Notes under the pieces: generated by a model
Seen by the model: the letters and a program-made list of their open reading frames with translations, nothing else
Told to the model about the DNA's origin: nothing
Databases searched by the model: none
Position numbers and translations under genes: made by a program
Shown here: piece by piece, positions 6,331-30,137 of the stretch
Layout of the letters: each line of letters begins with the position of its first letter
Position numbering within the stretch: the first letter of the stretch is position 1
IMG/VR virus record: IMGVR_UViG_3300025010_000120
Span: 1 to 41,790 of that record
Source of the DNA: a virus
Direction: 5' to 3' (one strand)
Length of the DNA stretch: 41,790 nt

Positions 6331-6405
6331 CTCCTACAAACAAAAAACATCGGGAAGGAGGTAGGAGTTCTCCTTATCAGTAGGTTAATTACTCCTACCT
6401 ATCCC
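6331..6405 (-). promoter_or_regulatory. HEG leader RNA element, copy 1
   Basis: Read on the minus strand: short closing helix GGG/CCC (6403-6405 with 6352-6354), then AUAG, hairpin A (6394-6398/6380-6384, 9-nt loop AGTAATTAA), linker UGAU, and hairpin B (6370-6375/6355-6360, 9-nt loop AACTCCTAC). Loop B has a perfect 7-nt complement, GTAGGAG, downstream at 6331-6337, which would form a pseudoknot. The gene's own RBS at 6274-6280 carries the same GTAGGAG, so loop B could pair with either. No clear promoter lies just upstream. A long alternative hairpin (GGTAGGAGT/ACTCCTACC) is also possible. Related elements precede three other HEGs. Confidence 0.65.
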
Positions 6406-6435
6406 AAAATCCATAAAACTACAAAACTAAATATA

Positions 6436-6465
6436 AAATAAAAAGAACCTACATTTAGCAGATTC
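6436..6465 (-). terminator. rho-independent terminator
   Basis: Stem 6445-6452/6458-6465 (8 bp including G-U pairs, 5-nt loop) is followed on the minus strand by TTTTTATTTT. It lies after the 67-residue gene and upstream of the first HEG leader element. Confidence 0.65.
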
Positions 6466-6525
6466 TTCAATATTACCAACATATCACATCAAAAAATCAA
6501 TTATATTTATTTTAAAAACAAAAAA

Positions 6526-6729
6526 TCAAAACTTACCAGTCAACTCAAATTTCTCAATCTGCTGACCAGTATACTTGCCATCACAAAAATTTTCAAATTG
6601 TGTATATGTCAAATCAGTGTGAAATTTTATTTCAACATTTAGCACATAAGCAATATGACAATATTTGTAATTGCACAGCATCAAACTTTCTGAATCCTCT
6701 GCACAAATAATCGGTTTTCTTTTCAACAT
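6526..6729 (-). CDS. small hypothetical protein
   Basis: The protein has 67 residues if it starts at the ATG at 6729, which follows AGGAGGAATTGATA at good spacing. A TTG six bases upstream is possible but sits too close to the RBS. It begins MLKRKPIICAEDSESLM and I recognise no domain. A terminator follows. It forms a short pair with the gene at 6776-7066 between the RHH gene and the zinc-finger HEG. Confidence 0.65.
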   Translation of the reverse strand: MLKRKPIICAEDSESLMLCNYKYCHIAYVLNVEIKFHTDLTYTQFENFCDGKYTGQQIEKFELTGKF

Positions 6730-6775
6730 TATCAATTCCTCCTAATAATTATACTCAACAAATAATTCAGTAAAA

Positions 6776-7066
6776 TCAACACATACTTAAAACAATCTGT
6801 TCAGCACCCATACTAGGAGCAATTGGATTCCTATGTATGTCTAACACATCTAACTGATTAATTAATAAATTCTCATATTCACGTTCCTCATTGTACTCCA
6901 AATTCCCAAATTGATATTTCCCATTCACAAAACTAAGAAATTCAAAATTTTCATAAAAAGTATGCTTACTAACCGTATCTGTCTTAACTTCCAACCATAC
7001 AGGTTTTCCTAATAATTCTTCCATAATCTCTTCAAACTGCAATTTAGTTAATTGATTATAATTCAT
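6776..7066 (-). CDS. small hypothetical protein
   Basis: The protein has 96 residues from the ATG at 7066 (MNYNQLTKLQFEEIMEELLG), which follows ATGGAGG with a 10-base spacing. An in-frame start at 7117 would add 17 residues but has no RBS, and the better RBS lies inside that extension. The protein is acidic and has no domain I recognise. A probable promoter lies at 7129-7157. Confidence 0.65.
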   Translation of the reverse strand: MNYNQLTKLQFEEIMEELLGKPVWLEVKTDTVSKHTFYENFEFLSFVNGKYQFGNLEYNEEREYENLLINQLDVLDIHRNPIAPSMGAEQIVLSMC

Positions 7067-7128
7067 AAAATAAAAACCTCCATAATTAAATTTACAAGGA
7101 TTTATAATTTCCATCACCTTGTAAACTT

Positions 7129-7157
7129 ATTATACAGGTTTATCAATGGGTATACAA
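7129..7157 (-). promoter_or_regulatory. probable sigma-A promoter upstream of the 96-residue gene
   Basis: On the minus strand, TTGTAT (7152-7157) is followed by a 17-base spacer and a perfect TATAAT (7129-7134). An imperfect inverted repeat, ACAGaTTT...AAAcCTGT, covers the spacer and could be an operator. Confidence 0.5.
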
Positions 7158-7249
7158 ATCTGTTAACCCATCATATTTGACCAAATAATTAAGTTATAGC
7201 ATATTATCTCCAAATAACTAACTATTTCACAATATACCTCAATATGTCT

Positions 7250-7594
7250 TTAAATTTCTTTACTATTTAAATAATCATTAATATATTTTTCCATCTCATA
7301 AATCTTTTGCTGTATGCGTACTAATTCCAATATTAATTGCTCAGTTTCTTCTAAATTAGAATCATTAATTTTGTTTTTATATATCTTATCTTGAAGTATT
7401 TCTCTATCACGAAGTAATTGTCTCAATATATTAATTGAATCTAAATATTCAGGTTGTTCTTTATCTAAAAACATAGTAATAATATCTCTAACAAAATCTG
7501 AAACATTTTTATTCTGTTTTCTAGCGGTAGACTCAATACGCTTTTTTAACCCAGGTGTTACCCTTATTATTAATTTTTCATCTTTTGTTGACAA
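7250..7594 (-). CDS. ribbon-helix-helix DNA-binding protein
   Basis: The protein has 114 residues from a TTG at 7594 after TAGGAGTGTGATTTAA. The N-terminal half fits a ribbon-helix-helix fold (LIIRVTPGLKKRIESTARK then NVSDFVRDIITMFL): a short beta strand followed by two helices. The C-terminal half is a predicted coiled coil. Such proteins are usually dimeric repressors. It has its own upstream control region with two promoters (7619-7624, 7721-7749) and repeats, so autoregulation is plausible. The upstream promoter shares a 45-base region with the promoter at 18009-18037. I infer that this protein is one candidate for binding there. Confidence 0.75.
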   Translation of the reverse strand: MSTKDEKLIIRVTPGLKKRIESTARKQNKNVSDFVRDIITMFLDKEQPEYLDSINILRQLLRDREILQDKIYKNKINDSNLEETEQLILELVRIQQKIYEMEKYINDYLNSKEI

Positions 7595-7618
7595 TTAAAT
7601 CACACTCCTATCTATATC

Positions 7619-7627
7619 ATTATACCA
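7619..7627 (-). promoter_or_regulatory. extended -10 promoter for the RHH gene (proximal)
   Basis: The minus strand shows TGGTATAAT, a perfect extended -10. The predicted start is near 7612, giving a leader of about 18 nt. That leader would lack the CTCTATCT segment (7651-7658) which could pair with the RBS in a longer transcript. Confidence 0.5.
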
Positions 7628-7720
7628 CAACTATGTAATCCACAAAAATAAGATAGAGAATGTTTATTTATCGCTAATTTTGATTACTAATTATTATTAG
7701 TAATTTTATTGCTTAATCAT

Positions 7721-7749
7721 ATAATACCATACTATAAAAATAAAGTCAA
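7721..7749 (-). promoter_or_regulatory. sigma-A promoter for the RHH gene (distal)
   Basis: TTGACT (7744-7749), a 17-base spacer and TATTAT (7721-7726) preceded by TGG. The 45 bases 7745-7789 match 18033-18077 at 41 positions, so two promoters 10 kb apart share their upstream DNA. Confidence 0.75.
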
Positions 7750-7774
7750 CATATTTATTTTATTATTTTGTAAA

Positions 7775-7814
7775 GTTATTTTATGTTATTTTATGTTATT
7801 TTATGTTATTTTAT
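7775..7814. repeat. four perfect tandem copies of a 10-bp repeat
   Basis: GTTATTTTAT occurs four times head to tail (7775, 7785, 7795, 7805). The period is about one helical turn, so all copies face the same side of the DNA. The array lies just upstream of the distal RHH promoter and about 230 bp from the integrase 3' end. It could hold operators, iterons or integrase arm sites. Confidence 0.85.
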
Positions 7815-8007
7815 AATTCAAATTAAATAATCACAAGTAGTAACTAAGATTTATATATTTATAGATGTATTTAATATAATTTAATATTATATTTTAACCT
7901 TAGTTACTTATTTCTAATTATTTAATTGATTTCTGTGTTAATTTATGATTTCACTATTTTTACGATTTTGCAAATGCTTATAAAATAAGGGTTTATAGCA
8001 TGTTAAA

Positions 8008-8055
8008 ATTTATAATATCATAACAAAATGAGGATTTGGTTATGATATTATAAAT
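8008..8055 (-). terminator. 17-bp hairpin at the integrase stop codon
   Basis: Arms 8008-8024 and 8039-8055 are perfectly complementary (17 bp, 14-nt loop) and include the integrase stop. The minus-strand arm is followed by only TTTT. It is probably a terminator; a role in recombination is also possible because it borders int. Confidence 0.55.
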
Positions 8056-9073
8056 CACTCAAAGATTTTCTTTCAGTTTGTTTAATACCATCTTCATTAA
8101 AATATTTACCTAATTCTTCATCAACTTCAGTATCATTGTATAAACTTACCATATCAGTAGATTCCCATCCTATAATATCTTTAATTACATCCGCTGGGAT
8201 ATTCGCTTTGCATAGAGAGGTGTTAAAAAAATGACGTGCCGAGTGCCAATAATAATCAATTCCAAGAATATTAGAAAATGTTAATGCCCATGAATTTAAT
8301 AAAGAAACATCTGCTGGTTTCCAAATACCACCATATTTATTCCAAAATAATTCTTCACCTTCAATACCTAGTTCTTGTCTTTGTTTCATCCATAAATCAA
8401 AATAAGGTTTAAAAGTTTTTACTAACACATATCTATATATAAACTTACCATTACCCATTCCTTTAGTTTTTATTTTCTCAGGTGTTTTATATAAAGCACC
8501 ATATATAATATTTTCATCAATAAAATAATTAGTTTTAAATCTAAGTATTTCAGATTTTCTTGAACCACTAGATACAGCTAATGCAAATGCACATGCTTGT
8601 TGATATTTACCTTTATCAACGAGATAATTCAATAAATATTCAATTTGATTATCTTCTAAGATTGTTTTATTCCTAACTTCTTGTTTAGGAGGAGCAGGTA
8701 TTTTATTTATAATTGGTCTAAAATTAGGATACAAATCATCCATTATTGCTTCAATAAAATTAGACATACTACTAATAGCAGATTTTAATCTTCTAACCCT
8801 TGCAGAACTTAATTTTTGTGTATTGACCATCCACCCCTGATATTTAATTACATCACGTTTAGTAAAATCAACAAAAAACTTATTATTATTGTATTGTAGA
8901 TTCCAAGTTAGGAAGATCATGATGTCATTTAAATAACCATCTACTGTTTTTGTTGATTTATTTGTACTTTTACAATATTCAATAAACTCATTCATTAATT
9001 CTTTGTTCTCATTTGAAACTTTATCCCATAATTCAGGAGTTACTATAGTATGTTGTTCAGTTTTTCTAGGCAA
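8048..9073 (-). CDS. int: tyrosine recombinase / phage integrase
   Basis: The protein has 341 residues from a TTG at 9073 after GGAAGTGATTTAATA. The N-terminal part (about 20-125) looks like a SAM-like core-binding domain. The catalytic domain shows R172 (SSGSRKSEILRF), a Lys near 202-204, H277-x-x-R280 (YYWHSARHFFNT), W303 and the nucleophile Y312 (MVSLYND). All expected catalytic residues are present. It catalyses site-specific integration and excision between attP and attB. It follows the HEG at 9098 by 24 bases, so the two are probably co-transcribed. The following non-coding region (7595-8047) is the likely attP location. Confidence 0.92.
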   Translation of the reverse strand: MPRKTEQHTIVTPELWDKVSNENKELMNEFIEYCKSTNKSTKTVDGYLNDIMIFLTWNLQYNNNKFFVDFTKRDVIKYQGWMVNTQKLSSARVRRLKSAISSMSNFIEAIMDDLYPNFRPIINKIPAPPKQEVRNKTILEDNQIEYLLNYLVDKGKYQQACAFALAVSSGSRKSEILRFKTNYFIDENIIYGALYKTPEKIKTKGMGNGKFIYRYVLVKTFKPYFDLWMKQRQELGIEGEELFWNKYGGIWKPADVSLLNSWALTFSNILGIDYYWHSARHFFNTSLCKANIPADVIKDIIGWESTDMVSLYNDTEVDEELGKYFNEDGIKQTERKSLSDL

Positions 9074-9097
9074 TATTAAATCACTTCCTTCAAATTA

Positions 9098-10672
9098 TTA
9101 TTTTAAAAAACTAAAAATTTCATCTAACTTATTTAAATCTTTAGGATAAATAGCAATAAAATTATCTTGTAAATTTGCTTTCTTAATAAAATCAATTTTT
9201 GTTTTATGTCTTTTGTCATAATTATAGTTACCCATAAGTCCAAAATACTCAATAATATAAAACTTATCATCATTTTGCAACAACCAATCAAACCTCTTAT
9301 ATCCAATAAATTTTCTTAATTCTTCATTATCTTCAACTAAATTTTTATAGCAATATTCTTTTGCAATTATATTAATATTATTATTAAGAAAATAATTATG
9401 TATTAAACATTCAGATATAGATAAACACATTGTTTCATCTTTTGCATAACATATTGTTCCTCTGGCATGATCTGAATTAGGTATACAACCAAGTGATTCC
9501 ATAAATTCATTCCAACTACATTTTAATCTTCTAATAACTGTTCTTGGTGATGGCAATTCATAAACTTTTTTACAAAACTCATATGTAGGTGTAATATCTA
9601 AATCTTCAATAAAATCTTTATATACTTTAATTATTTCTTCATTAGTTAAATGTTGTGAAATATCTTTCTTATTTGGTATGTGTCCCAAAGATAAAAATAC
9701 ATTGTTAATTCCACCAAAATAATTAAAATAAGTACAAGCATTAACCATATCTTTATTATCATTTACCTCTTTTGTAGATGGTAATCTACCTAATTGATTA
9801 ATAAAAATTTTCATATCTTTAATCATTTCTTCTTTTGATCTTTGTCTATCAATCATGCTTTCTTGAATTATTTCAAGTCCAAGCTCTTCTTTCATTTTAT
9901 TCATGGTTCCCCAATGATTATTTATAGTTTTTATTCCAATATCATTATCTTTATTTATATTATTAAAATCTTCTAACATAATAGGTCTATTTAATTTATT
10001 TTTCAATTCTAATATCATTTTAATAGCTAACTCTTTAGATATATTATATCTAGGTTTATAACCAATATATTCTATAAATTGGTTATAATCTTTAACATTT
10101 TTATTTGGACAATATTTTACAAACCAATTAGCTGTTGGTAATTGATAATTATTATGTAATAATTCATGATATTTTAGTGGTCTTTTTAATTCATTACTTA
10201 TTTCTTTAAATTTATTCATATAATCATTATATTTATTAATATCTGGATAAAATATATTATATTCAGATATTAAATATTCTGACCATGAAGTATTATTTAA
10301 TTTTAATATACTTGTTACTTTTTGAAATGATGGCATTTCATTATTGCCAGTATTAAAATCTTCTGAAGTTGGATATCTATTATGTATTTTATAAAATTCA
10401 GAAAATATTATTTTTAAATCATTCATATTAATACTACGAGGTGATTTATATTTATCACCAACTTTAATATCTCTATCTTTTTTAAATCCTTTTTCTCTAT
10501 AATAATCTTCCCATTCATTATAACCTAATTTTTTAAAATATCTTTTTATTGGTCTTATATCACCAATAATTTTTTCTTTATAAATTACTGAATTAATTGG
10601 AATTATTCCAATCTTTTTAATTAATAATTCAATTTTTTCTAAAACTTCTTCATAATTAATTTTCTCACTCAT
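9098..10672 (-). CDS. homing endonuclease with HNR-type repeats and PD-(D/E)XK-like nuclease
   Basis: The protein has 524 residues from an ATG at 10672 after AAAGGATGGTG. Most of it is a series of degenerate helical repeats of the type (L)xRPxxxDF...HWGTMNKMKEELG, matching homing-endonuclease-associated repeats thought to bind DNA; about six are discernible. The C-terminal 110 residues hold a nuclease-like segment: SECLIHNYF, then GYKRFDWLLQ and YIIEYFG, fitting E...D...ExxxF of a PD-(D/E)XK fold. It carries a copy of the leader RNA element (10709-10801). It lies directly upstream of the integrase. Confidence 0.75.
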   Translation of the reverse strand: MSEKINYEEVLEKIELLIKKIGIIPINSVIYKEKIIGDIRPIKRYFKKLGYNEWEDYYREKGFKKDRDIKVGDKYKSPRSINMNDLKIIFSEFYKIHNRYPTSEDFNTGNNEMPSFQKVTSILKLNNTSWSEYLISEYNIFYPDINKYNDYMNKFKEISNELKRPLKYHELLHNNYQLPTANWFVKYCPNKNVKDYNQFIEYIGYKPRYNISKELAIKMILELKNKLNRPIMLEDFNNINKDNDIGIKTINNHWGTMNKMKEELGLEIIQESMIDRQRSKEEMIKDMKIFINQLGRLPSTKEVNDNKDMVNACTYFNYFGGINNVFLSLGHIPNKKDISQHLTNEEIIKVYKDFIEDLDITPTYEFCKKVYELPSPRTVIRRLKCSWNEFMESLGCIPNSDHARGTICYAKDETMCLSISECLIHNYFLNNNINIIAKEYCYKNLVEDNEELRKFIGYKRFDWLLQNDDKFYIIEYFGLMGNYNYDKRHKTKIDFIKKANLQDNFIAIYPKDLNKLDEIFSFLK

Positions 10673-10708
10673 TACACAAACACCATCCTTTAATGTTTTA
10701 TTTTATTT

Positions 10709-10801
10709 GTCCTATAACTCCTAATAAAAAATAAAAAAATATCAAGTAGGAAACATTAGGACTTATGCTTATCGTGTTGCAATCACTATCCCACTTGATA
10801 T
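10709..10801 (-). promoter_or_regulatory. HEG leader RNA element, copy 4
   Basis: The closing helix is strongest here: 12 bp, 10790-10801 with 10739-10750, one G-U. Then AUAG, a short hairpin A around ATTGCAA, linker (C)GAU, and hairpin B (10765-10770/10751-10756, 8-nt loop AAGTCCTA). The loop can pair with TAGGAC at 10709-10714 (6 bp) or ATTAGGA at 10719-10725 (5 loop bases plus 2 of the stem). The 3' arm plus loop (10751-10758) is also complementary over 8 nt to 10691-10698, directly upstream of the SD, giving a possible switch. Confidence 0.6.
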
Positions 10802-10846
10802 AAACTTAAATAAATTTAATAAATCTAAAAAACTTAATCCATAACA

Positions 10847-10879
10847 CAAAAATACCCACCACATTTTCGTGATGAGCAT
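10847..10879 (-). terminator. rho-independent terminator after the ORF6N gene
   Basis: Stem 10852-10862/10869-10879 (11 bp with several G-U pairs, 6-nt loop) followed by TTTTTG on the minus strand. Between it and the ORF6N stop, the 14-bp GTAGATAGTTTGAT is repeated twice in tandem (minus strand) and supplies extra stop codons. Confidence 0.65.
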
Positions 10880-10942
10880 TTTCCTACCATAAATTAAATT
10901 GTAAATAACCATAAAACCATCAAACTATCTACATCAAACTAT

Positions 10943-11797
10943 CTACACTAACAATCTAATCTCACTATCCCCAACCACCAACCTCTTACTATTCTTAATA
11001 TCCATAATAGATTTCTTTGCTTTTTCCGGTTTCCTCTTCTCAGGATATTCTTTTAACAATTCTTCATATATTTGTTCCCAACTATAACCTTTCTTCTCCA
11101 TAAAATGTATTTCATCTTCAATCTCTCTGATTTCTTCTAAATCTTTCTGAGATAAATAATCTCTAAGATTATCTTTTTGTCCCAAATCTAAATAATCTCT
11201 AATTTCTTTTGCATTCATACCGTACAAAATATTATATGTAATGTTCGTCACATCTTTATAAGTCTTGCGTCCTTTAGGTAATTCACCTTTACCAATCATT
11301 TTAGTAATAGAAGCAGTTTCTCTCTTCCTTCTAAAAGTACCATCCATTCTTATTACTAATCTTTCTATATCCTTACCTGTTAATATATTTTCTATTTTCT
11401 TTACTATTTCTTTTAATTCAAAATATTCATCAATAACTTCTTTATATTGTTTCATTGCTAACTCTGAATCCATCAATTTAAGTAACAATGTATAACCTCT
11501 TTGAGATAATAAATAAATATTCTTACTTGCATTGATTGATTGTCTTGTAAAAATCTTACTATCGTTTAAAACGAGAGCTACATTTTTATCATTTTTTAAA
11601 TCTAAAATATCAATTCCATAAACAAAGTGTTGTAAATTATTATTAATCAATTCATTAATATGTCCTAATTTTTTATTATGTATCTCAGCAACAGTTTTTG
11701 CTAACATAACTTTCTGATCTTTCCCAAATCCACCATAAACAATTGGCACTTCTATCCCACAAACCGTTGTATTACCTTTAACTACTAAATTACTCAT
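10943..11797 (-). CDS. ORF6N-domain phage antirepressor-like protein
   Basis: The protein has 284 residues from the ATG at 11797; a GTG six bases upstream is an alternative, both served by AAAGGAGAG. Residues about 1-130 resemble the ORF6N domain (GFGKDQKVMLAKTVAEIHNK, FVYGIDILDL, IYLLSQRGYTLLLKLM) found in phage antirepressors. The C-terminal part has a helical region ending in a basic tail. Such proteins often counter a repressor or regulate phage genes. An upstream hairpin (11838-11867) has an arm complementary to the RBS. Confidence 0.8.
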   Translation of the reverse strand: MSNLVVKGNTTVCGIEVPIVYGGFGKDQKVMLAKTVAEIHNKKLGHINELINNNLQHFVYGIDILDLKNDKNVALVLNDSKIFTRQSINASKNIYLLSQRGYTLLLKLMDSELAMKQYKEVIDEYFELKEIVKKIENILTGKDIERLVIRMDGTFRRKRETASITKMIGKGELPKGRKTYKDVTNITYNILYGMNAKEIRDYLDLGQKDNLRDYLSQKDLEEIREIEDEIHFMEKKGYSWEQIYEELLKEYPEKRKPEKAKKSIMDIKNSKRLVVGDSEIRLLV

Positions 11798-11837
11798 AAA
11801 CACAATCTCTCCTTTTATTCATTAATTAAATTTATTA

Positions 11838-11867
11838 GAGTAGGAGAGGTTTTATTTTCTCCTACTC
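11838..11867 (-). promoter_or_regulatory. leader hairpin with an anti-RBS arm, ORF6N gene
   Basis: Arms 11838-11847 and 11858-11867 form a perfect 10-bp stem with a 10-nt loop and no T tract. The 3' arm and its loop base (coding CTCTCCT, 11842-11848) are exactly complementary over 7 nt to the RBS AGGAGAG at 11807-11813. Stem opening could therefore let the arm block translation. Confidence 0.55.
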
Positions 11868-11919
11868 AACTACCTATCTAACTACTTAATCACATACTGT
11901 ATATATGTAAACAAACACT

Positions 11920-11952
11920 TATAGGATTAGTGGCGCGACTACTATTCCTATA
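11920..11952. repeat. 11-bp imperfect hairpin with GC-rich loop
   Basis: Arms TATAGGA/TCCTATA and TAGT/ACTA flank a 9-nt loop that carries self-complementary GCGC in very AT-rich DNA. It lies in the ORF6N leader. Kissing or dimer formation is possible; function unknown. Confidence 0.5.
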
Positions 11953-11966
11953 TATAATTTATTTTT

Positions 11967-12005
11967 ATATAGTGAAGATAATGTTAGATTTTATCTTCAC
12001 TATAT
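11967..12005. terminator. 15-bp hairpin after the HU gene
   Basis: Perfect 15-bp stem 11967-11981/11991-12005 with a 9-nt loop. There is no T tract on the minus strand, so it may stabilise the HU mRNA 3' end or terminate weakly. Confidence 0.55.
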
Positions 12006-12037
12006 TTTATTAATCTATGTATTCAACTAACTAAATA

Positions 12038-12403
12038 CTATTCTTCACTCTCACTTTCATTAACTTCACTAACAATACCATTTACTTTATCCTTAAAAAC
12101 CTTACCTGCCTTAAAACTAATTACAAAATGGTCTACACTATTATATTCTTCACCTTTTTTCGGCCCAACATTAATAGTACCAGTTTTACCTTCTTTAAAT
12201 TTCTTCTCAAAATTTCCAAAACCAACAAGTTTCAAATCATCATTTGCAACAGTATCCATGATTAAATCTAAAAAACATTCACCATAAAATTCTGCTTCTT
12301 TTTTTGATACTTTCTTTGATTTTTCAACCTTATCAGCCTCAAATGCTTCTTTCTTTTCGTTCAGTACCTCTGCATAGCGGTTCAATAATTCTTTCTTAGT
12401 CAT
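12038..12403 (-). CDS. HU-family DNA-binding protein
   Basis: The protein has 121 residues from ATG 12403 after AAAAGGAGAAATGATTT. It matches HU/IHF in order: an N-terminal helix pair (MTKKELLNRYAEVL), then LKLVGFGNFEKKF, a short arm region with NVGPKKGEEY, and FKAGKVFKDKV near the end. It is longer than classical HU (about 90) because of inserted charged residues near 20-40 and an acidic tail ESESEE. HU proteins bend and compact DNA. It has its own consensus promoter, so strong, probably early, expression is expected. Confidence 0.88.
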   Translation of the reverse strand: MTKKELLNRYAEVLNEKKEAFEADKVEKSKKVSKKEAEFYGECFLDLIMDTVANDDLKLVGFGNFEKKFKEGKTGTINVGPKKGEEYNSVDHFVISFKAGKVFKDKVNGIVSEVNESESEE

Positions 12404-12443
12404 AATAAATCATTTCTCCTTTTATTTTATATTATTTTTATTT

Positions 12444-12463
12444 CCTCAGTTCATTTTCTGAGG
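12444..12463 (-). repeat. 5' hairpin in the HU leader
   Basis: CCTCAG/CTGAGG stem (12444-12449/12458-12463, 8-nt loop) within the first ~25 nt of the predicted HU transcript. A 5'-terminal hairpin commonly protects mRNA; that role here is inference. Confidence 0.5.
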
Positions 12464-12471
12464 TTAAATTT

Positions 12472-12500
12472 ATTATACATTTATTTTTATATTCTGTCAA
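12472..12500 (-). promoter_or_regulatory. consensus sigma-A promoter of the HU gene
   Basis: Perfect TTGACA (12495-12500), 17-base spacer, perfect TATAAT (12472-12477) on the minus strand. The spacer (ACAGAATATAAAAATAAAT including the -35 end) resembles the repeat flanking the 18009-18037 promoter, suggesting a shared operator. Confidence 0.88.
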
Positions 12501-13916: not shown

Positions 13917-13955
13917 AATTATCCACTCCTTGTCGTGTTATTTTATTAATACTAT

Positions 13956-14050
13956 TTCCTTGTATTATTTCTCACCTATAAAAACAAAAAGAAGAGAGGA
14001 CACAAGGAATCCTCTCTTATCAATTGGGTTAATTACTCCCAATCTATCTT
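13956..14050 (-). promoter_or_regulatory. HEG leader RNA element, copy 2
   Basis: Minus strand: closing AAG/CTT (14048-14050 with 13989-13991), AUAG, hairpin A (14038-14043/14023-14028; loop AGTAATTAA, identical to copy 1), linker UGAU, and hairpin B (14010-14018/13992-14000, 9 bp; 9-nt loop TTCCTTGTG). The loop pairs with ACAAGGAA at 13956-13963 over 8 bp plus a G-U. The RBS of the GIY-YIG gene (13927-13933) repeats ACAAGGA, so the same loop could also cover the RBS over 7 bp. The closing helix is weak; the two hairpins and the pseudoknot are strong. Confidence 0.68.
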
Positions 14051-23109: not shown

Positions 23110-23112
23110 CTT

Positions 23113-23472
23113 TTACACCCCCAATATTATGTCTGTTAGTTGTTGTCCGAGTAATTGCAGATCATCAACAATTGTTCCCTCTTGTATAATTTGTTTTGCC
23201 TTCGCAATCTTAGCTTCTCTTTCGGATTTCTCAGCCATTTGCTGTAACCCCAAATCAAATAGATTACCAAAATTTTGAGTAATAAATTCCTGAATATTTT
23301 CTCTGTCAGGAATAAATACATCTACCTCTTCAAATGTATATTGTTTTTCTTCTAACTCTTCATGAAGAATAATTTCTTCTGTGAAGTTCCTACGGAGAGT
23401 AACATGTCTAACCCCGTTTTCAACTTCTCGTAACCAAACTGTATCTGGCATAAAACTGCATTGAGAAATCAT
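23113..23472 (-). CDS. tail-fibre-associated phage protein
   Basis: The protein has 119 residues. Its ATG overlaps the reverse transcriptase stop (ATGA), so translation is coupled. It has a beta-rich N-terminus (TVWLREVENGVRHVTLRRNF) then a helical part (NFGNLFDLGLQQMAEKSERE) rich in charged residues. Proteins of this size precede XkdX in many phages, with no known function. Its tight coupling to the RT makes a DGR role possible but unproved; it does not look like Avd, a four-helix protein. Confidence 0.6.
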   Translation of the reverse strand: MISQCSFMPDTVWLREVENGVRHVTLRRNFTEEIILHEELEEKQYTFEEVDVFIPDRENIQEFITQNFGNLFDLGLQQMAEKSEREAKIAKAKQIIQEGTIVDDLQLLGQQLTDIILGV

Positions 23473-24473
23473 GTTATAACCAACTCCTTCATGTATTTTT
23501 CTTTCAACCTGTAAGAATTACACCACTTCAACCAACCCAAATATGATTGAGTCGAGCATCTATCAGAATAAGTTAAAGTTCTTTTTTTCTGGAATTTACG
23601 CATCTTCCGTTTGAAATTTAAGCAAGTTGATTTCCTTAATAATACATAATCCCTAAATATGCGATACCCTAAGAAATCAATTCCTCTCACATCAACAGGA
23701 AATACTTGATAATTACCTTTGAGTTCTAATTTAAGTTCTCCAAGATAACCTTTTATTTCTTTTAAAAGTGCATGTAATTCTTCTTTTGAATTAGATAGTA
23801 TAACTACATCATCCATATATCTGAAAACATATTTACAGTGTTTTACTTCCTTTAACCAATGGTCAAAGTTACTCAGGTATATATTTGCGCTCCATTGAGA
23901 TAAATAGTTACCAATTGGGATACCTGTATCGTTAGACATTTCAACACTGTCTATTATTTCGTCAATTAACCATAATAAATCTTGGTCTTTAAATATCCTG
24001 CGATATTTTTGTTTTAGGATTTTGTGATTAATAGATGGATAATATTGACGAATGTCAAACTTCAAACAGTATTGAGCATATGCCTTATTTTTTAATGCAC
24101 GTTTGACTTTACTTAATCCTTGGTGAATACCTCTCCCTTTGATTGAAGAAAGAGTATTTGATACTAAAGTTTTAAGCAAATAAGGTTCGATGATTTGCAA
24201 GATTGCCCACTGTACAATCCTGTCTGGATAATATGGTAGTTTATAAATCTCCCTTTCTTTTACTCTGTCCCATTTTTTAAATACCTCATATAGACTTGTT
24301 TTGTACGTCTTATTTATAAGCATTTCTTGGATTTGTTTAAGATAATAATCCTCGCTATCATTAATCATTTTTACGTCTTTGTAAAAACTCTTACCTTTTC
24401 GTGCATTTTTATGCGCCAATCTTAGGTTTTCTAAATCATAAATTTTCTCATATAAATTACCAATTCTTTTCAT
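23469..24473 (-). CDS. DGR reverse transcriptase
   Basis: The protein has 334 residues from ATG 24473 after AGAAGGAATGCA. RT motifs: fingers with RVKEREIYKLPYYPDRIVQW (motif 1/2), FDIRQYYPSI (139-148, catalytic Asp), GIPIGNYLSQWSANIYL (184-200), YRYMDDVVIL with YMDD (219-222), and GIDFLGYRIF. The IGxxxSQ signature in motif 4 is diagnostic of DGR enzymes, as opposed to retrons or group II introns. It uses the TR RNA as template with adenine-specific errors; the cDNA replaces the VR. The TR lies 127 bases upstream. Confidence 0.95.
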   Translation of the reverse strand: MKRIGNLYEKIYDLENLRLAHKNARKGKSFYKDVKMINDSEDYYLKQIQEMLINKTYKTSLYEVFKKWDRVKEREIYKLPYYPDRIVQWAILQIIEPYLLKTLVSNTLSSIKGRGIHQGLSKVKRALKNKAYAQYCLKFDIRQYYPSINHKILKQKYRRIFKDQDLLWLIDEIIDSVEMSNDTGIPIGNYLSQWSANIYLSNFDHWLKEVKHCKYVFRYMDDVVILSNSKEELHALLKEIKGYLGELKLELKGNYQVFPVDVRGIDFLGYRIFRDYVLLRKSTCLNFKRKMRKFQKKRTLTYSDRCSTQSYLGWLKWCNSYRLKEKYMKELVIT

Positions 24474-24564
24474 TGCATTCCTTCTTGTGCTTTGTATTGT
24501 ACCTGGCCTTCGAGAATTAACCTACCAGCACGGTTTTTAAGTTTTTATGTTTCACCAAGAGGTG

Positions 24565-24742
24565 GGGCAAAATAAATCACAATGTTTTCACCAAAGCATA
24601 AAGGTGTGTGCTGATATTACGATTACGATTACCTGAGCTATTATTCAGATTCCAATAGAATGCTCCCGTATTCGCTCCATTATTCCAATTACTGCCTAAT
24701 TGAGTGACGAAAGTGCCTACGTTTTTCGTAATTATTTTGCCC
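24565..24742 (-). repeat. 11-bp inverted repeat flanking the TR
   Basis: GGGCAAAATAA at 24565-24575 is perfectly complementary to 24732-24742. It would close the TR RNA into one large loop of 156 nt. In the known BPP-1 DGR RNA, flanking spacer sequence is required for cDNA priming, so a structural role is plausible. Confidence 0.7.
24600..24726 (-). other. DGR template repeat (TR)
   Basis: 127 bases align without gaps to the VR at 24773-24899 (offset 173). They differ at 25 positions, all of them plus-strand T, i.e. coding-strand A. All 83 non-A positions are identical, and 19 of 44 adenines are unchanged. Changes are A to G 19, A to T 3, A to C 3. It can be read as TQLGSNWNNGANTGAFYWN, rich in AAT/AAC codons. 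The TR lies within a 55-codon ORF starting at 24744 (stop 24577-24579), probably incidental. Confidence 0.96.
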
Positions 24743-24750
24743 ATATATAA

Positions 24751-24768
24751 TTAATTTTTAAAAATTAA
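24751..24768. repeat. 18-bp palindrome just after the VR
   Basis: TTAATTTTTAAAAATTAA is its own reverse complement and contains the target gene's stop codon. Hairpins or cruciforms directly downstream of the VR are known to help DGR homing. Confidence 0.7.
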
Positions 24769-25994
24769 GCGGAAAGGCGCGCGCCGATACTACGACCACG
24801 ATAACCCGAGCTATTATTCAGATACCAATAGAATGCCCCCGCATACGCTCCATCACGCCAATGACCGCCCAATCGAGCGACGAAAGCGCCCACGCTGTTT
24901 TGGTAATAATAGTCTGCGAATTTTGAACTTGACGTGCCGAGGCACTCGGCAGGGACAAACCCGTAATCAAAGTTGTAATTCAATAAATCTTTTGACATAT
25001 AACCGTTTGCGTGTGCTAATTCTCCAACCTTTATATACTGACCTGTAAAAACATCCGAAACAAAATTTCCATTAATATTGCTAATATAGGCGAATCCATT
25101 ACTTATGTTAAATCCATCTGTCCATTTCCAGATGTTGCCCCAAAAGTTTTCAAATCCACGATAACTTATTGAAACTAATCCGTCTGTGCCGACTGCTCTG
25201 CCTGATTTGTTACCAAGATAAGATGTACCACCAGTAATAATTGAATTATTATCCGTATTTGGTACATCTGGTACATTTGCTACACCTTGACCTATTTTTG
25301 ATTGTGAATTTAAACCTGCGTATTCTACAATCAGCAACATTTGAATAGCACTTACGGCATTAAAATACTGTTGTTGCCAACCTGTACCACGATTAGTTGC
25401 AAGTATCCTACTATTTGGCAATGTTAAATTTTGCGTCAAACCAGAACAAGGTTTAACCCCTGCAATACTGCATAATTTATCTCCAGTAGTAACAGTAAAA
25501 TCTGCAATTTGTTCATCTGCCAATAAATAAGCACTTGCAGAAACGTCATATATCGAACCTTCATAAGCACTAAAATACGCTTTTGTTCTTGTTTTACCAT
25601 TCGCATCATAAAACCACGGATGAAACTTCATACCAGTTAAAGGCAACATACTAATATAAGTGTCAATTGTGTCACTATCTACTAGTTGTCGACTATAATA
25701 AAATGCAGGAATTTCAACCATAACTTGACCATTTGATCCATCTTCGATATATCCAGTATCACCATAATAAGCATTTACTTTTAAGGCATCGGATAAATTA
25801 CAACGTCTCATACCAGCCCAAGGCATAATATTATTAAAATCATTCAATCCATCACCAATGTTTGCTACTTTACCGACAGAATTGCCAATACGAGTTATTG
25901 TGTCTGTCGATATTTTATATCTTATACCGTACTTTGCTACACCCATTTCTGTAATAGGAGCAATAAAGTTTGCACTATACCTAGATTGCGACAT
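24765..25994 (-). CDS. DGR target: phage receptor-binding protein with C-type lectin-like variable domain
   Basis: The protein has 409 residues from ATG 25994 (MSQSRYSANFIAP), after GGGGAGGGAATTTCCT; a GTG at 26012 overlaps the RBS and is rejected. It overlaps the upstream gene by 14 bases. The C-terminal 200 residues fit the formylglycine-generating/C-type lectin fold used by DGR targets: FENFWGNIWKWTDGF, FVPAECLGTS and the variable GGHWRDGAYAGAFYW...NNSSGYRGRS...GAR. It probably sits at the tail tip and its variation alters host binding. The gene lies in the tail-fibre group upstream of the RT. Confidence 0.92.
   Translation of the reverse strand: MSQSRYSANFIAPITEMGVAKYGIRYKISTDTITRIGNSVGKVANIGDGLNDFNNIMPWAGMRRCNLSDALKVNAYYGDTGYIEDGSNGQVMVEIPAFYYSRQLVDSDTIDTYISMLPLTGMKFHPWFYDANGKTRTKAYFSAYEGSIYDVSASAYLLADEQIADFTVTTGDKLCSIAGVKPCSGLTQNLTLPNSRILATNRGTGWQQQYFNAVSAIQMLLIVEYAGLNSQSKIGQGVANVPDVPNTDNNSIITGGTSYLGNKSGRAVGTDGLVSISYRGFENFWGNIWKWTDGFNISNGFAYISNINGNFVSDVFTGQYIKVGELAHANGYMSKDLLNYNFDYGFVPAECLGTSSSKFADYYYQNSVGAFVARLGGHWRDGAYAGAFYWYLNNSSGYRGRSIGARLSA
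24773..24899 (-). other. DGR variable repeat (VR) at the 3' end of the target gene
   Basis: It encodes residues from about VGAFVARLGGHWRDG to GRSIGARLSA at the protein C-terminus. About 16 residues differ from the TR reading (for example N to H, R, D, Y, Y, Y, G, S). Beyond its 3' edge, CCTTTnnGCTT is shared with the TR side but nn is CC here and AT there, fitting the IMH/IMH* polymorphism that makes homing one-way. Confidence 0.95.
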
Positions 25995-26556
25995 AGGAAA
26001 TTCCCTCCCCACTCACAGACGCATCAATCCATATCTGGTTTACGTTAGCTACTGCAAATGTATAACTTTCTTTTGCGGAAAGTTCTACTCCATATACGGT
26101 AGAAGATACATTACTTCCTCCTGCATAGATGTATCCTGAGTTTATACGTTTGGCAATAATCGTTACTTCCCTGCAAGATACACTAGGCAATTGTACCCTT
26201 GTTCCTGCTGTTGTTACGTTTTGTATTATCCCAGTTATCGCAACAATACTACCAGTTAGTTTCATACTCCCTGGACTAGCATCAGTGAATATCTCATTCC
26301 CATTTGCATTTTTATTTACTACAGCATTAGTAGTTCCTGGTGTAGTTTGATCAATATTAACTTTAACATTGCCTAAAGCAGTAACTATATCTGCTAAACT
26401 CTTTACTGTTTCTCCTGTTTTTGTAATTGCATCTCTTAATGCTGATAATTGAATATTTAAATTAGCATTGGTTACAGCAGGAATATTTGTTATTTCTGTT
26501 CTTAGAGAATTTGTTCCTCCAGACAATATATCTGTTAAGGGAATATTTTCAGGCAA
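25981..26556 (-). CDS. tail structural protein paired with the DGR target
   Basis: The protein has 191 residues from TTG 26556 after AAAGGAGTGATATATA. It has an N-terminal helical segment (LSALRDAITKTGETVKSL), then Thr/Asn/Gly-rich beta sequence ending in VNQIWIDASVSGEGISY. It is typical of small phage tail or baseplate fibre proteins, with no catalytic motif. The last 14 bases overlap the DGR target, suggesting coupled synthesis and perhaps joint assembly. Confidence 0.65.
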   Translation of the reverse strand: MPENIPLTDILSGGTNSLRTEITNIPAVTNANLNIQLSALRDAITKTGETVKSLADIVTALGNVKVNIDQTTPGTTNAVVNKNANGNEIFTDASPGSMKLTGSIVAITGIIQNVTTAGTRVQLPSVSCREVTIIAKRINSGYIYAGGSNVSSTVYGVELSAKESYTFAVANVNQIWIDASVSGEGISYVAI

Positions 26557-26619
26557 TATATATCACTCCTTTATATTAATATTTAATTTAACATTATAAT
26601 TTAAAATTATTTTAATATT

Positions 26620-26790
26620 TTAAACCCAAACTCTATCTATATCATTAATAACTGTGATTCCAAATAGTAGGTTAAATAGTCCACCTATTGACAAATTATC
26701 TATAGGTGTGGTAGTATTAATTTGATTATTTATATTAATAATTTGTGTAGGGATTAATTGTTCATTATTTCCTAACCAAACGTATTTCAT
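26620..26790 (-). CDS. small phage protein between collar and fibre genes
   Basis: The gene encodes 56 residues, MKYVWLGNNEQLIPTQI to TVINDIDRVWV. The ATG at 26790 follows AAGAGGTGAT by about 10 bases. The protein is mostly hydrophobic and beta-like. It is short, but its RBS and its place in a tight gene series support it as a real gene. Confidence 0.7.
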   Translation of the reverse strand: MKYVWLGNNEQLIPTQIININNQINTTTPIDNLSIGGLFNLLFGITVINDIDRVWV

Positions 26791-26824
26791 ATTTTAAAAA
26801 TCACCTCTTTTGTGAGAATTTATT

Positions 26825-28186
26825 TTAATACTTAATTACATAGTTCATTACTAAGTAAGGTTGTAAATTATTATGTGCTAAACCACCACCTGTATTGGAA
26901 GTTCCCCAAGTTCCACTACCTGGATCTAATCTCCAATCGTTTGTGAATATATCACTAGTATCTGTATTCGTATTATTCCATGCCGTGAACGTATGATTAT
27001 GTGAAGGCATTTCGGGTGTAGTAAGAGTATGTGTTTTCTCACCACCACTTTCACCTAATGTATCAAATTCTGTTTGTAAAGAATCTAATCCTACTGGTAC
27101 TTTACCTTTTAGATTTGGAATATTAAAAGTAGTACTGCCATTTCCTACACCATAAGTATCACCAATTACATTAAATAATGCAGAATATGTATTTCTTGAA
27201 ATAGCAGATCCATCGCAAATGAGATACCCACTAGGAGAAACAGAACCAGCAAACATTTGAATTGAACCTATTACTACACCATTTGATGCAGAAGCAGGAG
27301 CAAATAGTGTTTGAAATGCTGAATCAATTTGAATTGGTATATCTGATCCTTTTTGCACGATAATTTTACCAACAAGCATTGCATTTGTTGCTACTACTTG
27401 TGGAATTTCAGGTGGCTGACATGCTTTTGCTTGATCTAAACTAGCATCAACATCATAAAGAAATATATGTATTCGTGCAGAATCTATATCTGGTCTACAC
27501 ATACAACGATATACCCATACTACAGCATATTTTCCATCTGTAAGAGTTGATAATGTGCCAGTTTTAGGATCATATTGAGTATTTGGAAATTGAGTTGCAA
27601 TGCTACTAGAAAATGTACCATCACCATTATTTATCCAAAGAAGCATTGTATCTACACTTGAATCTACTGTTGGAAAACTACTACTATATGATCCTTCCCA
27701 TGCTTTTCCTGTATTTATAATAATATTTCTACTTTCTGATACTTCTAAAGTAAGTCCAGATGCTCTCTCAAATCTCCTTGTTTCAATTAATCGTCTGTGA
27801 ATTTTATTTGATAACCCAAGTCCAGGTTCATCCCAATCAATTACTGAGATTCCATCACCTATACGAGCAATAGTATATACTGGAGTATTATTAGACCAAT
27901 TAATATCTAATAAATTAAGAGTAATAACATATTGTGGATTACCATCATTATACTGAGCAATAAGATAGTTTGTAACCATATCAGTAGTTGCTAATGTTGT
28001 TTCTGGAATAGTATATTCTGTTATTAAACCAGTATAATTAGTTGTATTATATAATCTAAAAATACCTTCACTTATTGTAATTGTTCCTAAACCTGTATTA
28101 TAAGTTATTGTTGGTTTTATAATAGTTCCAGAATTTGTTTTTAAATATGAACCAGATAAATTATTAGTATTATTATTTAAAGGCAT
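26825..28186 (-). CDS. tail fibre protein with phage tail collar domain
   Basis: The protein has 453 residues from ATG 28186; its RBS GAGGGGGTG lies at the end of the previous gene. The N-terminal 290 residues are beta-rich fibre sequence. From about residue 302 the tail collar domain is clear: GSIQMFAGSVSPSGYLICDG, TYSALFNVIGDTYGVGNGST, FNIPNLKGKVPVGLD, then HNHTF and a C-terminal HNNLQPYLVMNYVIK. Such proteins are distal tail or short fibre parts. No variable repeat is present here. Confidence 0.85.
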   Translation of the reverse strand: MPLNNNTNNLSGSYLKTNSGTIIKPTITYNTGLGTITISEGIFRLYNTTNYTGLITEYTIPETTLATTDMVTNYLIAQYNDGNPQYVITLNLLDINWSNNTPVYTIARIGDGISVIDWDEPGLGLSNKIHRRLIETRRFERASGLTLEVSESRNIIINTGKAWEGSYSSSFPTVDSSVDTMLLWINNGDGTFSSSIATQFPNTQYDPKTGTLSTLTDGKYAVVWVYRCMCRPDIDSARIHIFLYDVDASLDQAKACQPPEIPQVVATNAMLVGKIIVQKGSDIPIQIDSAFQTLFAPASASNGVVIGSIQMFAGSVSPSGYLICDGSAISRNTYSALFNVIGDTYGVGNGSTTFNIPNLKGKVPVGLDSLQTEFDTLGESGGEKTHTLTTPEMPSHNHTFTAWNNTNTDTSDIFTNDWRLDPGSGTWGTSNTGGGLAHNNLQPYLVMNYVIKY

Positions 28187-28192
28187 ATTATA

Positions 28193-28738
28193 TTACACCC
28201 CCTCAGTTACAAGTAAATTCTTCAAACCAATTGAATTATGTATACAATTTATTGCTTGTGTTGATATAAACCAAGGTTGTAATTCATAATTACCATTACT
28301 AGAATTTACAGGTATTCCTTCATTTAATACAGCATCGGTTCCAAATGATAAATACATATCTGTATCTGAGTTATTAACAATAAGTAGATATTTTCTATTA
28401 GAATTAGCAGGGAGGATGGACGTAGATGTGGTGGATACTTGAATTGTTGTGTGTGTTAATGTTAAATTTGGAAATGCTGCTATTACTGTGCGTTGTACAC
28501 CTAAACCTTGAGGATCTTTTTCGTATGAATTGTTGACTGTAGTACCGTCTGTGGATATGCCTTTTTGAATGATTGCTGTCTTATCTGTCTCCCATGTAGT
28601 ACCATTGAAAAGAAATTCATTGCCAGTATCTATTTCTACAAGTTTATCACCGACATCTGTATGAGTTGGTTTGGTATCAGTTGATAGAGCATAGTAAGTA
28701 TTTAGATGTTTATAGTGTGATGCATTTCTAACAGTCAT
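28193..28738 (-). CDS. tail fibre-associated structural protein
   Basis: The protein has 181 residues from ATG 28738 after AAGAAGGTGATAATTCAAC. It has a beta-rich sequence with GDKLVEIDTGNEFLFNGTTW, a segment typical of phage tail proteins near fibres, and SNRKYLLIVNNSDTDMYLSF resembling a small beta-sandwich in phage virion proteins. The stop lies 6 bases before the collar gene. The exact role is not known. Confidence 0.7.
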   Translation of the reverse strand: MTVRNASHYKHLNTYYALSTDTKPTHTDVGDKLVEIDTGNEFLFNGTTWETDKTAIIQKGISTDGTTVNNSYEKDPQGLGVQRTVIAAFPNLTLTHTTIQVSTTSTSILPANSNRKYLLIVNNSDTDMYLSFGTDAVLNEGIPVNSSNGNYELQPWFISTQAINCIHNSIGLKNLLVTEGV

Positions 28739-28842
28739 GTTGAATTATCACCTTCTTTATTGTTTTTGTTTGGATATAAGGTTATAGAAAAGGCTATTTG
28801 ATTTGTTGAATGATCTTATTGTATTTATTAGAATATTAAGCA

Positions 28843-28877
28843 AAAAATAAAAAAATAGTCTATTAACTAGACTATTT
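28843..28877 (-). terminator. rho-independent terminator after the HEG
   Basis: 10-bp stem 28853-28862/28868-28877, 5-nt loop, TTTTTTATTTTTTG on the minus strand. It insulates the tail-fibre group from the HEG. Confidence 0.88.
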
Positions 28878-28878
28878 G

Positions 28879-30030
28879 TTATTTTTCTATATCTTTTTTA
28901 GTTATACATCTTAATTTTCCATAATCATGTTTTTCTTTAAACTCAGAACAAATTATTTTACTATTATCTATATCGAATATAATCCAAGAATGACCTGTAT
29001 TTAAATAATTTTTTGCTAAATTAATTATTTCTACAATTTTATCATCTAAAGGTAATAAATCATTTTTAGAAATTAATCTAACCATTTTCCAGTCTTTATT
29101 TTTAAAATAATAATATCTTCTTATTTCTTTTTTATCAAATTCTTCTTGTGTCATTTTACCAAAAATTACTCTTAAACCATGCCCTCCACCATCATATTCT
29201 ATATAGATTTTTTCATCTAGAAATGCAATATCTAATAATGATATTTTTGTGGCAAAATTTAATTCACCACCTAATAAATTATGTAAATATATTTGTTGTC
29301 TACTCGTTGGAGTGCTGCCATTTTTACATAAAGAGGCAATACTTTTTTCTACAGACTTTAATTTTATTTCTTCGACTTGCATAGGATTGTCACAACCAAA
29401 TTTATTACGAAAAGTTTGTAAAATTTTATTTTTAACTTCTTTATTTTTACTTGGATTATCTGTACCATATTTTACTAACCATGTTTTAATACTCTTACCT
29501 CGTATTTTATCAGTTTGTAAAGGATAATCTACACCAAAATTATCATTATAATATTGCTTGGATTTTTCTATATAATCATCAGTTTGAAAATAAAATTCTT
29601 TTCCCCAATTAGATAAAGATGTTTCTATCTTTTTTTGTTTAACATTTTCTATTTGAGAATTATGTTCTACTCCATACTTATTTAAATTAGTTTGTTTCAT
29701 TTTATCTTTAGATGATTGTAATTTTGCAACATTATTAACATTATATTTAATTAAATTACTTTCTTTAATTTTTTTACCTTTACATTCTTTACAACAGTCT
29801 TTATGTATTATACCATTTATATTTTGAGTTATATGTTTATTATAACTTTGAGAAAATTTTTTACCACAATAATCACATGTTACTTCAACATAAATTTTTG
29901 CATTTTCTCTTAAATCAAGAACATCTATTACGATTATTTCATTATACTTCCAATTATAACCCTTTGGTTCTAAGAACTTTTTATTATTTGGTCTGCATTT
30001 TATATTAACATATTGAGGTAATATTAACAT
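28879..30030 (-). CDS. free-standing homing endonuclease with zinc finger and PD-(D/E)XK-like domain
   Basis: The protein has 383 residues from the ATG at 30030 (7 bases after AGGAGG; the ATG at 30036 is too close). A CxxC...CCxxC zinc site (CDYCGKKF...DCCKEC) is followed by several copies of a KYG-x-x...Q-x repeat (TNLNKYGVEHNSQ, NFGVDYPLQ, KYGTDNPS, KFGCDNPMQ). The C-terminal nuclease shows SRQQIYLHNLLGGEL, LDIAFLDEKIYIEYDGGGH (D and E) and KNKDWKMVRLI. This design occurs in phage HEGs. It sits behind a perfect promoter and leader element copy 3. Confidence 0.75.
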   Translation of the reverse strand: MLILPQYVNIKCRPNNKKFLEPKGYNWKYNEIIVIDVLDLRENAKIYVEVTCDYCGKKFSQSYNKHITQNINGIIHKDCCKECKGKKIKESNLIKYNVNNVAKLQSSKDKMKQTNLNKYGVEHNSQIENVKQKKIETSLSNWGKEFYFQTDDYIEKSKQYYNDNFGVDYPLQTDKIRGKSIKTWLVKYGTDNPSKNKEVKNKILQTFRNKFGCDNPMQVEEIKLKSVEKSIASLCKNGSTPTSRQQIYLHNLLGGELNFATKISLLDIAFLDEKIYIEYDGGGHGLRVIFGKMTQEEFDKKEIRRYYYFKNKDWKMVRLISKNDLLPLDDKIVEIINLAKNYLNTGHSWIIFDIDNSKIICSEFKEKHDYGKLRCITKKDIEK

Positions 30031-30057
30031 GATCATTCCTCCTGTAGAATTTTATTA

Positions 30058-30137
30058 TCCTGAAGGTTATTAAAATAGGGAAGGGGATTCAGGAAATATC
30101 CCCTTTGTCATAAGTTGATCACACTTATCTATCCCTA
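30058..30137 (-). promoter_or_regulatory. HEG leader RNA element, copy 3
   Basis: Closing helix TAGGG/CCCTA (30133-30137 with 30076-30080), AUAG, hairpin A (30124-30128/30110-30114, 9-nt loop TGTGATCAA), linker GACA, hairpin B (30098-30105/30081-30088, 8 bp, 9-nt loop ATTTCCTGA). Loop TCCTGA pairs with TCAGGA at 30058-30063, extendable to 7 bp. The element begins at the predicted transcription start, so it is the transcript's 5' leader. The loop shares only 5-nt complementarity with the RBS. Confidence 0.68.

Follow-up and report, generated by a model that had tools for sequence, protein, structure and literature searches.

A palindromic, pseudoknotted leader RNA with a start-site decoy: a candidate two-state translational switch of phage homing endonuclease and other genes

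Introduction

The question raised by the stretch of viral DNA analysed here is what a single type of leader RNA could be doing in front of homing endonuclease genes of different families. The stretch (hereafter the window) comprises the 41,790 nucleotides (nt) of IMG/VR virus record IMGVR_UViG_3300025010_000120, a 41.8-kb record with 26% G+C, and it carries four copies of a compact RNA element (E1–E4), all on the minus strand and each directly upstream of one open reading frame (ORF). A preliminary description had assigned the four copies (6331–6405, 10,709–10,801, 13,956–14,050 and 30,058–30,137, intervals that run from the closing helix P1 to a downstream pairing site) to one pseudoknotted architecture. 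It overlooked a second pairing site at the start codon and the palindromic loop of the first hairpin, and it offered no mechanism. The comparative analysis presented below suggests that the element is a two-state switch of translation initiation, the input of which is probably dimerisation through the palindromic loop; from the sequence evidence, this combined reading is given a probability of about 0.6.

Results

The consensus order of the core is P1 (last base G), AUA, hairpin A, GAY, hairpin B (AAG...CUU) and the C of P1, and 3' of the core there follow a U-rich linker, site 1, site 2 and the start codon. All four elements are present at the positions given above, and the pairing of loop B (the loop of hairpin B) with a downstream site was confirmed in each of them (Table 1). 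Hairpin B of E2 ends in UUU rather than CUU, and E2-like members form a subtype in which hairpin A has a short stem and the loop AUUGCAA. The outermost pair of hairpin A joins G with U or C (G-Y in 83 of 84 sequences), its first base pairing with the base before GAY. The linker between the hairpins, previously given as 3–4 nt, is therefore 3 nt long, the longer form being found in E4 (GACA). A U-rich stretch lies at positions 7–15 after hairpin B, several GC-rich contigs included.

Further downstream, two sites are complementary to loop B. Site 1 keeps a fixed spacing from the core, about 17 nt after hairpin B, and site 2 falls on the ribosome-binding site or start codon. Both sites, at a length of at least 6 nt, were found in 37 of 58 elements with different loops, against a mean of 0.8 (maximum 4) with swapped loops, and in an independent set of 64 elements picked blind to the sites the corresponding values were 27 and 0.47 (maximum 2). 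Loops that lack anti-Shine–Dalgarno motifs do equally well (both sites in 20/31), and this result, together with the swapped loops, rules out Shine–Dalgarno bias as the cause of the two sites. The position of site 1 has a standard deviation of 4.8 nt when measured from the core and 12.1 nt from the start codon, whereas that of site 2 is 4.3 nt from the start codon and 14.5 nt from the core. Among the elements with both sites, the mean duplex energies, which ignore tertiary context, are −9.9 kcal/mol for site 1 and −10.2 kcal/mol for site 2 (difference −0.2 ± 1.6). Within the window, site 2 is strong in E1, E3 and E4, and weak in E2. E4 shares promoter, P1 and hairpin A with a leader at L049:4867, as does E1 with one at L066:10402, and in both pairs loop B differs and both sites have changed to match. 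Between E2 and its relative at L066:6824, site 1 has changed along with the loop, and site 2 is weak in both. These results support a pairing of loop B with one site or the other, but not both, as the control on access to the start site.

Membership of the RNA family was assessed with two covariance models (R1 and R2), the E-values of which come from a shortened calibration. Model R2 was trained only on members with a loop A other than the canonical AGUAAUUAA, the relatives of the window copies being left out, and it returned exactly E1–E4 from the window and no other match at E ≤ 1; R1 likewise returned exactly these four copies, and a simple consensus pattern gave five matches (E1–E4 and one other) against 0.57 expected. 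Beyond the window, a first pattern built from the shared junctions and loop A, the stems of P1 and hairpin A not being part of it, led to 70 viral contigs, only a few of which are chance matches, and to 12 genome contigs, all but one or two of them genuine, of Planctomycetota, Bacteroidota, Bacillota, Pasteurellaceae and Kiritimatiellae. A second scan, which fixed only the junctions and the ends of P1 and hairpin B, gave with the earlier loci 132 copies that pass a pairing filter; they lie in phages and prophages whose hosts span several bacterial phyla. Members occur in contigs of up to 63% G+C, and about 20 nucleotides, mostly in the junctions, are highly conserved across these phyla. A loose pattern returned chance matches only, devoid of pairing or a model hit, and megablast and short blastn searches of the canonical hairpin against named phages gave mostly chance matches.

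The stems of P1 and hairpin A show 228 double-sided changes in the first set of members against 77 after shuffling, and none of 500 shuffles reaches the observed score; structures slid by one to three positions collapse. In 84 distinct members, the number of double-changed cells is 454, against 146 in shuffled data, and the paired cells fall from 88% to 45–54% when the structures are slid. Strong stem covariation is present in three alignments. The second set required pairing in hairpin A, so that the claims of covariation rest on the first set and the 84-member extension, and the arms of hairpin B were parsed by pairing, for which reason their pairing rate is no independent evidence. The compensatory changes that had been read from four copies are thereby borne out in a much larger sample.

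Searches of Rfam 15 left the elements unmatched in the window (at the gathering threshold and at E ≤ 1) and at 16 further loci (E ≤ 1); the search worked, because matches to RT-17, tRNA, C4 and isrK were obtained. No Rfam intron matches the elements, which form three-way junctions of about 55–65 nt followed directly by the gene; the conserved P3–P7 core and splice sites expected of a group I intron or its remnant are not in evidence. An IscB/TnpB-type guide (HEARO or omega RNA), for which an Rfam match and linkage to a single nuclease family would be expected, is likewise not indicated, as no Rfam family matches and the downstream genes belong to unrelated families. A description of such a leader was not found in the open-access literature searched, a scope outside which falls the main comparative paper on structured RNAs of bacteria (10.1093/nar/gkx699). 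Within the scope of Rfam 15 and this literature, the RNA family is probably undescribed, in agreement with the earlier statement that no named class has this layout. The preliminary description had also listed a lack of further copies, a lack of covariation and an Rfam match as outcomes that would count against it; further copies and covariation were found, and an Rfam match was not.

Loop A, the loop of hairpin A, contains a palindrome of at least 4 nt in 40 of 44 distinct non-canonical loops (mean 16.4 and maximum 27 in 2000 shuffles) and a 6-mer palindrome in 22 of them (shuffled 3.2, maximum 9). Loop B of the same elements served as a negative control, with 17/104 and 1/104, respectively. 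The canonical loop holds UAAUUA, with AG on its 5' side and A on its 3' side, and others hold UAGCUA, UGAUCA, UCAUGA, UCGCGA, UUGCAA, AGUACU, GAUC, GUAC or GGCC, among others. The canonical layout is thus 2+6+1, two unpaired nucleotides 5' and one 3', although some loops of 7–8 nt have no unpaired base on the 3' side; the kissing loop of human immunodeficiency virus type 1 (HIV-1) shares this arrangement. In 40 of 41 loop types the palindrome is shifted toward the 3' side, a skew also found in the HIV-1 loop. This off-centre position relative to the stem dyad disfavours a DNA dyad (operator). Pairing of loop A within the same leader was rejected, as the palindrome recurs downstream in none of 36 leaders with a loop other than UAAUUA. 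A palindrome that is kept through sequence change and lacks a partner in cis is best explained by contact between two RNA copies.

The canonical hairpin also occurs outside the family. In the crAss-like phage cr271_1, two DNA polymerase ORFs flank a probable group I intron that contains two hairpins with the AGUAAUUAA loop (L158:899–919 and 1026–1046), which could kiss intramolecularly and provide an independent hint of a kissing module. Synechococcus phage S-CRM01 has a single AGUAAUUAA hairpin right after tRNA-Thr (L157:899–919), with neither P1 nor hairpin B.

Recognisable promoters end just upstream of P1. The promoter of E4 ends 6 nt before the core, many leaders have a −10-like box ending 7–10 nt upstream of the core, and Bacteroidota-type phages carry a TAnnTTTG box just upstream of P1. 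In ten copies, a phage tRNA gene ends no more than about 5 nt from the start of P1 (leaders of this kind occur at L004, L011, L021, L022, L035, L042 and L076), and tRNA 3' processing may create the 5' end of these leaders. The placement of promoters and tRNAs suggests that the element forms the very 5' end of a primary or processed mRNA.

Most of the downstream genes specify homing endonucleases, of the HNH/NUMOD, GIY-YIG, DUF4379 and PD-(D/E)XK types. Each window copy precedes a homing endonuclease-like gene (Table 1), as had been reported, and the many copies found by the wider searches in front of endonucleases of different families extend the earlier observation that the RNA is not confined to one of them. 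Neither model detects the RNA at relatives of three of the nucleases that were examined in eight named phages (a positive control for this search of named records was obtained only later), so that no fixed link exists between the RNA and those families. The further proposal, that it goes with the selfish life style of homing endonucleases, is not supported as stated, since the RNA also precedes genes for AntA and Bro-N antirepressors, DnaD-like replication initiators, Prim-Pol primases, tyrosine integrases (found downstream in those Planctomycetota loci that were read) and one terminase. Two leaders stand before glycosyltransferase-like genes (Anp1/Glycos_transf_2; L204 and L217), outside this early-gene theme.

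Among isolated viruses, Parabacteroides phage PD491P1 has one copy, with both sites visible, before an I-HmuI-type HNH gene, and Bacteroides phage C3_41T2LP has three, before a DnaD/HTH gene, an I-HmuI-type endonuclease gene and an AntA antirepressor gene. Cellular genomes rarely carry the leader: counts that include the genomes that seeded the search are 5/170 in the order of a planctomycete, 6/140 in the family of a Pasteurella, and 2/395 and 2/398 in two phylum samples. The Pasteurella copy at L080 lies near matches to C4 antisense RNA and isrK (L080:4009–4250), which suggest a P1/P4/P22-type prophage region. One phage has two leaders that are identical down to the start codon and precede two different genes (L058:2753–2821, minus strand, and 6759–6827, plus strand), a recent exchange of leader or gene. 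Another, the 23-kb record G529 (L193), has three leaders with the same loop, before an AntA antirepressor gene and two small genes. The GIY-YIG genes of L022, L042 and L076 are open only if TAG is read as glutamine, and a tRNA with the anticodon CTA is present in L042; these genes and the suppressor-type tRNA suggest that several carriers are recoded gut phages that read TAG as glutamine.

Table 1. Positions of the leader elements, their downstream genes and other features of the window.
Feature	Position	Strand	Match or remark
E1 core (P1, hairpin A, GAU, hairpin B, P1 closing strand)	6352–6405	−	R2 match 6348–6410, E = 9e-16
E1 loop A palindrome UAAUUA	6386–6391	−	
E1 site 1 GUAGGAG	6331–6337	−	partner of loop B CUCCUAC
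E1 site 2 GUAGGAG	6274–6280	−	ribosome-binding site, likewise complementary to loop B
E1 gene, HNH-type endonuclease, 858 aa	3689–6265	−	phrog_1271 HNH endonuclease, E = 4.9e-44
E2 core, UUGCAA subtype	10,739–10,801	−	R2 E = 1.9e-4; R1 E = 2.5e-6
E2 loop A palindrome UUGCAA	10,777–10,782	−	
E2 site 1 UUAGGA	10,719–10,724	−	loop B UCCUAA; further match UAGGAC just downstream
E2 candidate site 2 AGGAU	10,685–10,689	−	weak: 5 bp including one G-U
E2 gene, homing endonuclease associated repeat PF18780, 524 aa	9098–10,672	−	E = 1.6e-18
E3 core	13,989–14,050	−	R2 E = 1.3e-10
E3 loop A palindrome UAAUUA	14,030–14,035	−	
E3 site 1 ACAAGGAA	13,956–13,963	−	partner of loop B UUCCUUGU
E3 site 2 ACAAGGA	13,927–13,933	−	ribosome-binding site
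E3 gene, GIY-YIG endonuclease, 271 aa	13,101–13,916	−	E = 1.3e-10
E4 promoter TTGACA, 17 nt, TATAAT	30,143–30,171	−	12/12; ends just upstream of P1
E4 core	30,077–30,136	−	R2 E = 6.6e-8
E4 loop A palindrome UGAUCA	30,116–30,121	−	
E4 site 1 UUCAGGA	30,058–30,064	−	loop B UCCUGAA
E4 site 2 CAGGAG	30,039–30,044	−	ribosome-binding site
E4 gene, homing endonuclease (DUF7487), 385 aa	28,879–30,036	−	phrog_12131 homing endonuclease, E = 7.5e-43
RT-17 RNA	24,483–24,569	−	Rfam RF03020
Reverse transcriptase gene	23,469–24,473	−	beside RT-17 RNA
Second perfect sigma-70 promoter	12,472–12,500	−	12/12
DNA-binding protein gene	12,038–12,403		downstream of this promoter

The genes of the window include, by profile search, those for portal and tail proteins, an integrase and a reverse transcriptase. 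The RT-17 RNA and the adjoining reverse transcriptase gene lie near the tail genes and look like a diversity-generating retroelement. Another perfect sigma-70 promoter stands upstream of a DNA-binding protein gene that lacks this leader.

Discussion

In the proposed mechanism, the three-way junction formed by P1, hairpin A and hairpin B would present loop B to two copies of one short sequence, and the loop could pair with either. Pairing with site 1 would form a pseudoknot with the core and leave the start site free (ON), while pairing with site 2, in the region of the ribosome-binding site and start codon, would block ribosome loading (OFF). That site 2 pairing represses translation is suggested by its position and by known cases such as the hairpins of the T4 endonuclease genes (PMC2988022). 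As the two pairings are mutually exclusive and of near-equal energy, a small input could shift the equilibrium. Hairpin A, through its self-complementary loop, would most likely kiss its counterpart in a second leader copy, and the input may then be dimerisation, in effect a measure of how concentrated the transcript is locally. We infer that dimerisation is coupled to the switch, with a slight lean toward a folded dimer that stabilises the site 1 pseudoknot and hence the ON state.

These parts are not equally secure. A two-state switch of translation initiation, taken alone, is quite likely on the comparative evidence; dimerisation by loop A is considered probable, somewhat less firmly than the switch and marginally more so than the two combined. 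The strongest version, in which a protein-free dimerising leader would act as a copy-number sensor, monomer and dimer differing in which of the two, decoy or start site, is bound by loop B, is advanced only tentatively, the odds being somewhat against it. Several observations weigh against the combined reading. E2 and a minority of the other leaders have only one convincing site, and four of the 44 loop types are not palindromic. A kiss by UAAUUA, the commonest palindrome, would be a weak 6-bp A-U contact, perhaps too weak at mRNA concentrations, and the strong conservation of the junctions (AUA, GAY, AAG/CUU) would fit a ligand pocket too.

The main rival, compatible with much of the evidence, is a metabolite or ion riboswitch, in which a ligand would bind in a pocket made by the junctions, stabilise the pseudoknot with site 1 and release the start site, and the palindrome would aid folding rather than act as sensor. 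The conservation of about 20 junction-centred nucleotides across phyla speaks for it, and a conserved, aptamer-like core is indeed joined here to the two-state expression platform that a riboswitch needs. The downstream genes, however, have no common metabolic theme, and a ligand leaves a palindromic loop A of changing sequence unexplained; this alternative is regarded as unlikely. Control by a widely conserved protein of host or phage, a ribosomal protein for instance, that binds the junction and selects the pairing is improbable. Leaders under ribosomal-protein control use similar pseudoknots, the same core is found in phages of very different hosts, and the palindrome could offer two sites to a dimeric protein, but there is no candidate protein, shared neighbour genes not having been searched for systematically.

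Less probable still is a 5'-terminal stability element that shields the mRNA from 5' exonucleases. Its topology would resemble that of the flaviviral exonuclease-resistant RNAs (xrRNAs), which have the same order of helices and pseudoknot, and the RNA does lie just after a promoter or tRNA 3' end. The likeness to xrRNAs (a three-way junction with a loop-to-downstream pseudoknot) is limited to helix order, with no shared sequence and no Rfam match, and exonuclease resistance would account neither for the palindrome nor for a second site whose position follows the start codon. A transcription attenuator, in which hairpin B and P1 followed by the U-rich stretch terminate transcription, would account for the U-rich positions, also seen in GC-rich contigs, and for one terminator-like hit, at E3. 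Sites 1 and 2, however, lie downstream of the U stretch, so that their pairing cannot decide termination, and the position of site 2 tracks the start codon; attenuation is thus very improbable. Chance resemblance in AT-rich DNA, suggested by a window of 26% G+C in which hairpins and short matches abound, is refuted by the independent model that finds only E1–E4, by the covariation, by the swap controls and by members whose contigs reach 63% G+C, and is given practically no weight.

The two-state switch with a dimerising loop has partial parallels among known systems. In the T4-type endonuclease genes (I-TevI, segB and mobE), leader hairpins hide the ribosome-binding site and control translation (PMC2988022), and here, too, the phage leader folds into a structure that is able to pair with the ribosome-binding site of a gene for a homing endonuclease, at site 2. 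The T4-type leaders are simple hairpins, and in I-TevI late transcripts lack the inhibitory structure, which only read-through transcripts form, whereas the promoter of the present leaders, where recognisable (E4, and −10-like boxes in many others), lies upstream of the whole element, so that the transcript would keep the structure. Unlike the T4-type leaders, the core is also conserved across phyla, has a start-site decoy built in, and precedes genes beyond endonucleases. As in the HIV-1 dimerisation initiation site, a 6-nt palindrome with flanking unpaired bases occupies an apical loop near alternative pairings of the start codon (PMC7357161). There is, however, no homology, the palindrome is A-U rich, the hairpin belongs to a three-way junction with its own pseudoknot, genome packaging is not involved, and the dimer is putative.

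Palindromic loops that kiss are also found in the guanidine-II riboswitch, the hatchet ribozyme and the stem-loops of Moloney murine leukaemia virus (MoMuLV), although functional RNA homodimers are rarely seen in nature (PMC7357161). Guanidine-II kisses via a 2-nt palindrome, whereas the present leaders have a single hairpin each with a palindrome of 4–6 nt. Compact pseudoknotted leaders with a conserved core that control the ribosome-binding site are known from the translational riboswitches for preQ1, SAM (SAM-II), fluoride and ZTP. Unlike these, the present family has no Rfam match and no known ligand, and its pseudoknot partner is a duplicated decoy, while theirs is typically the expression platform itself. 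Each single principle has its precedent; what appears to be new is the RNA family, and the joint presence of a start-site decoy and a palindromic loop in one phage leader.

Conclusions

If this reading is correct, the elements represent a widespread class of phage regulatory RNA that is missing from Rfam 15, can be recognised from sequence, and occurs in isolated, cultivable phages. One kind of RNA control would then cover homing endonucleases, antirepressors, replication initiators and integrases, and in the copy-number version their translation would depend on the number of transcripts and so on the number of phage genomes. A long-standing question would become directly testable: how selfish endonucleases and lysis/lysogeny genes are restrained, and whether phages count genomes by RNA alone.

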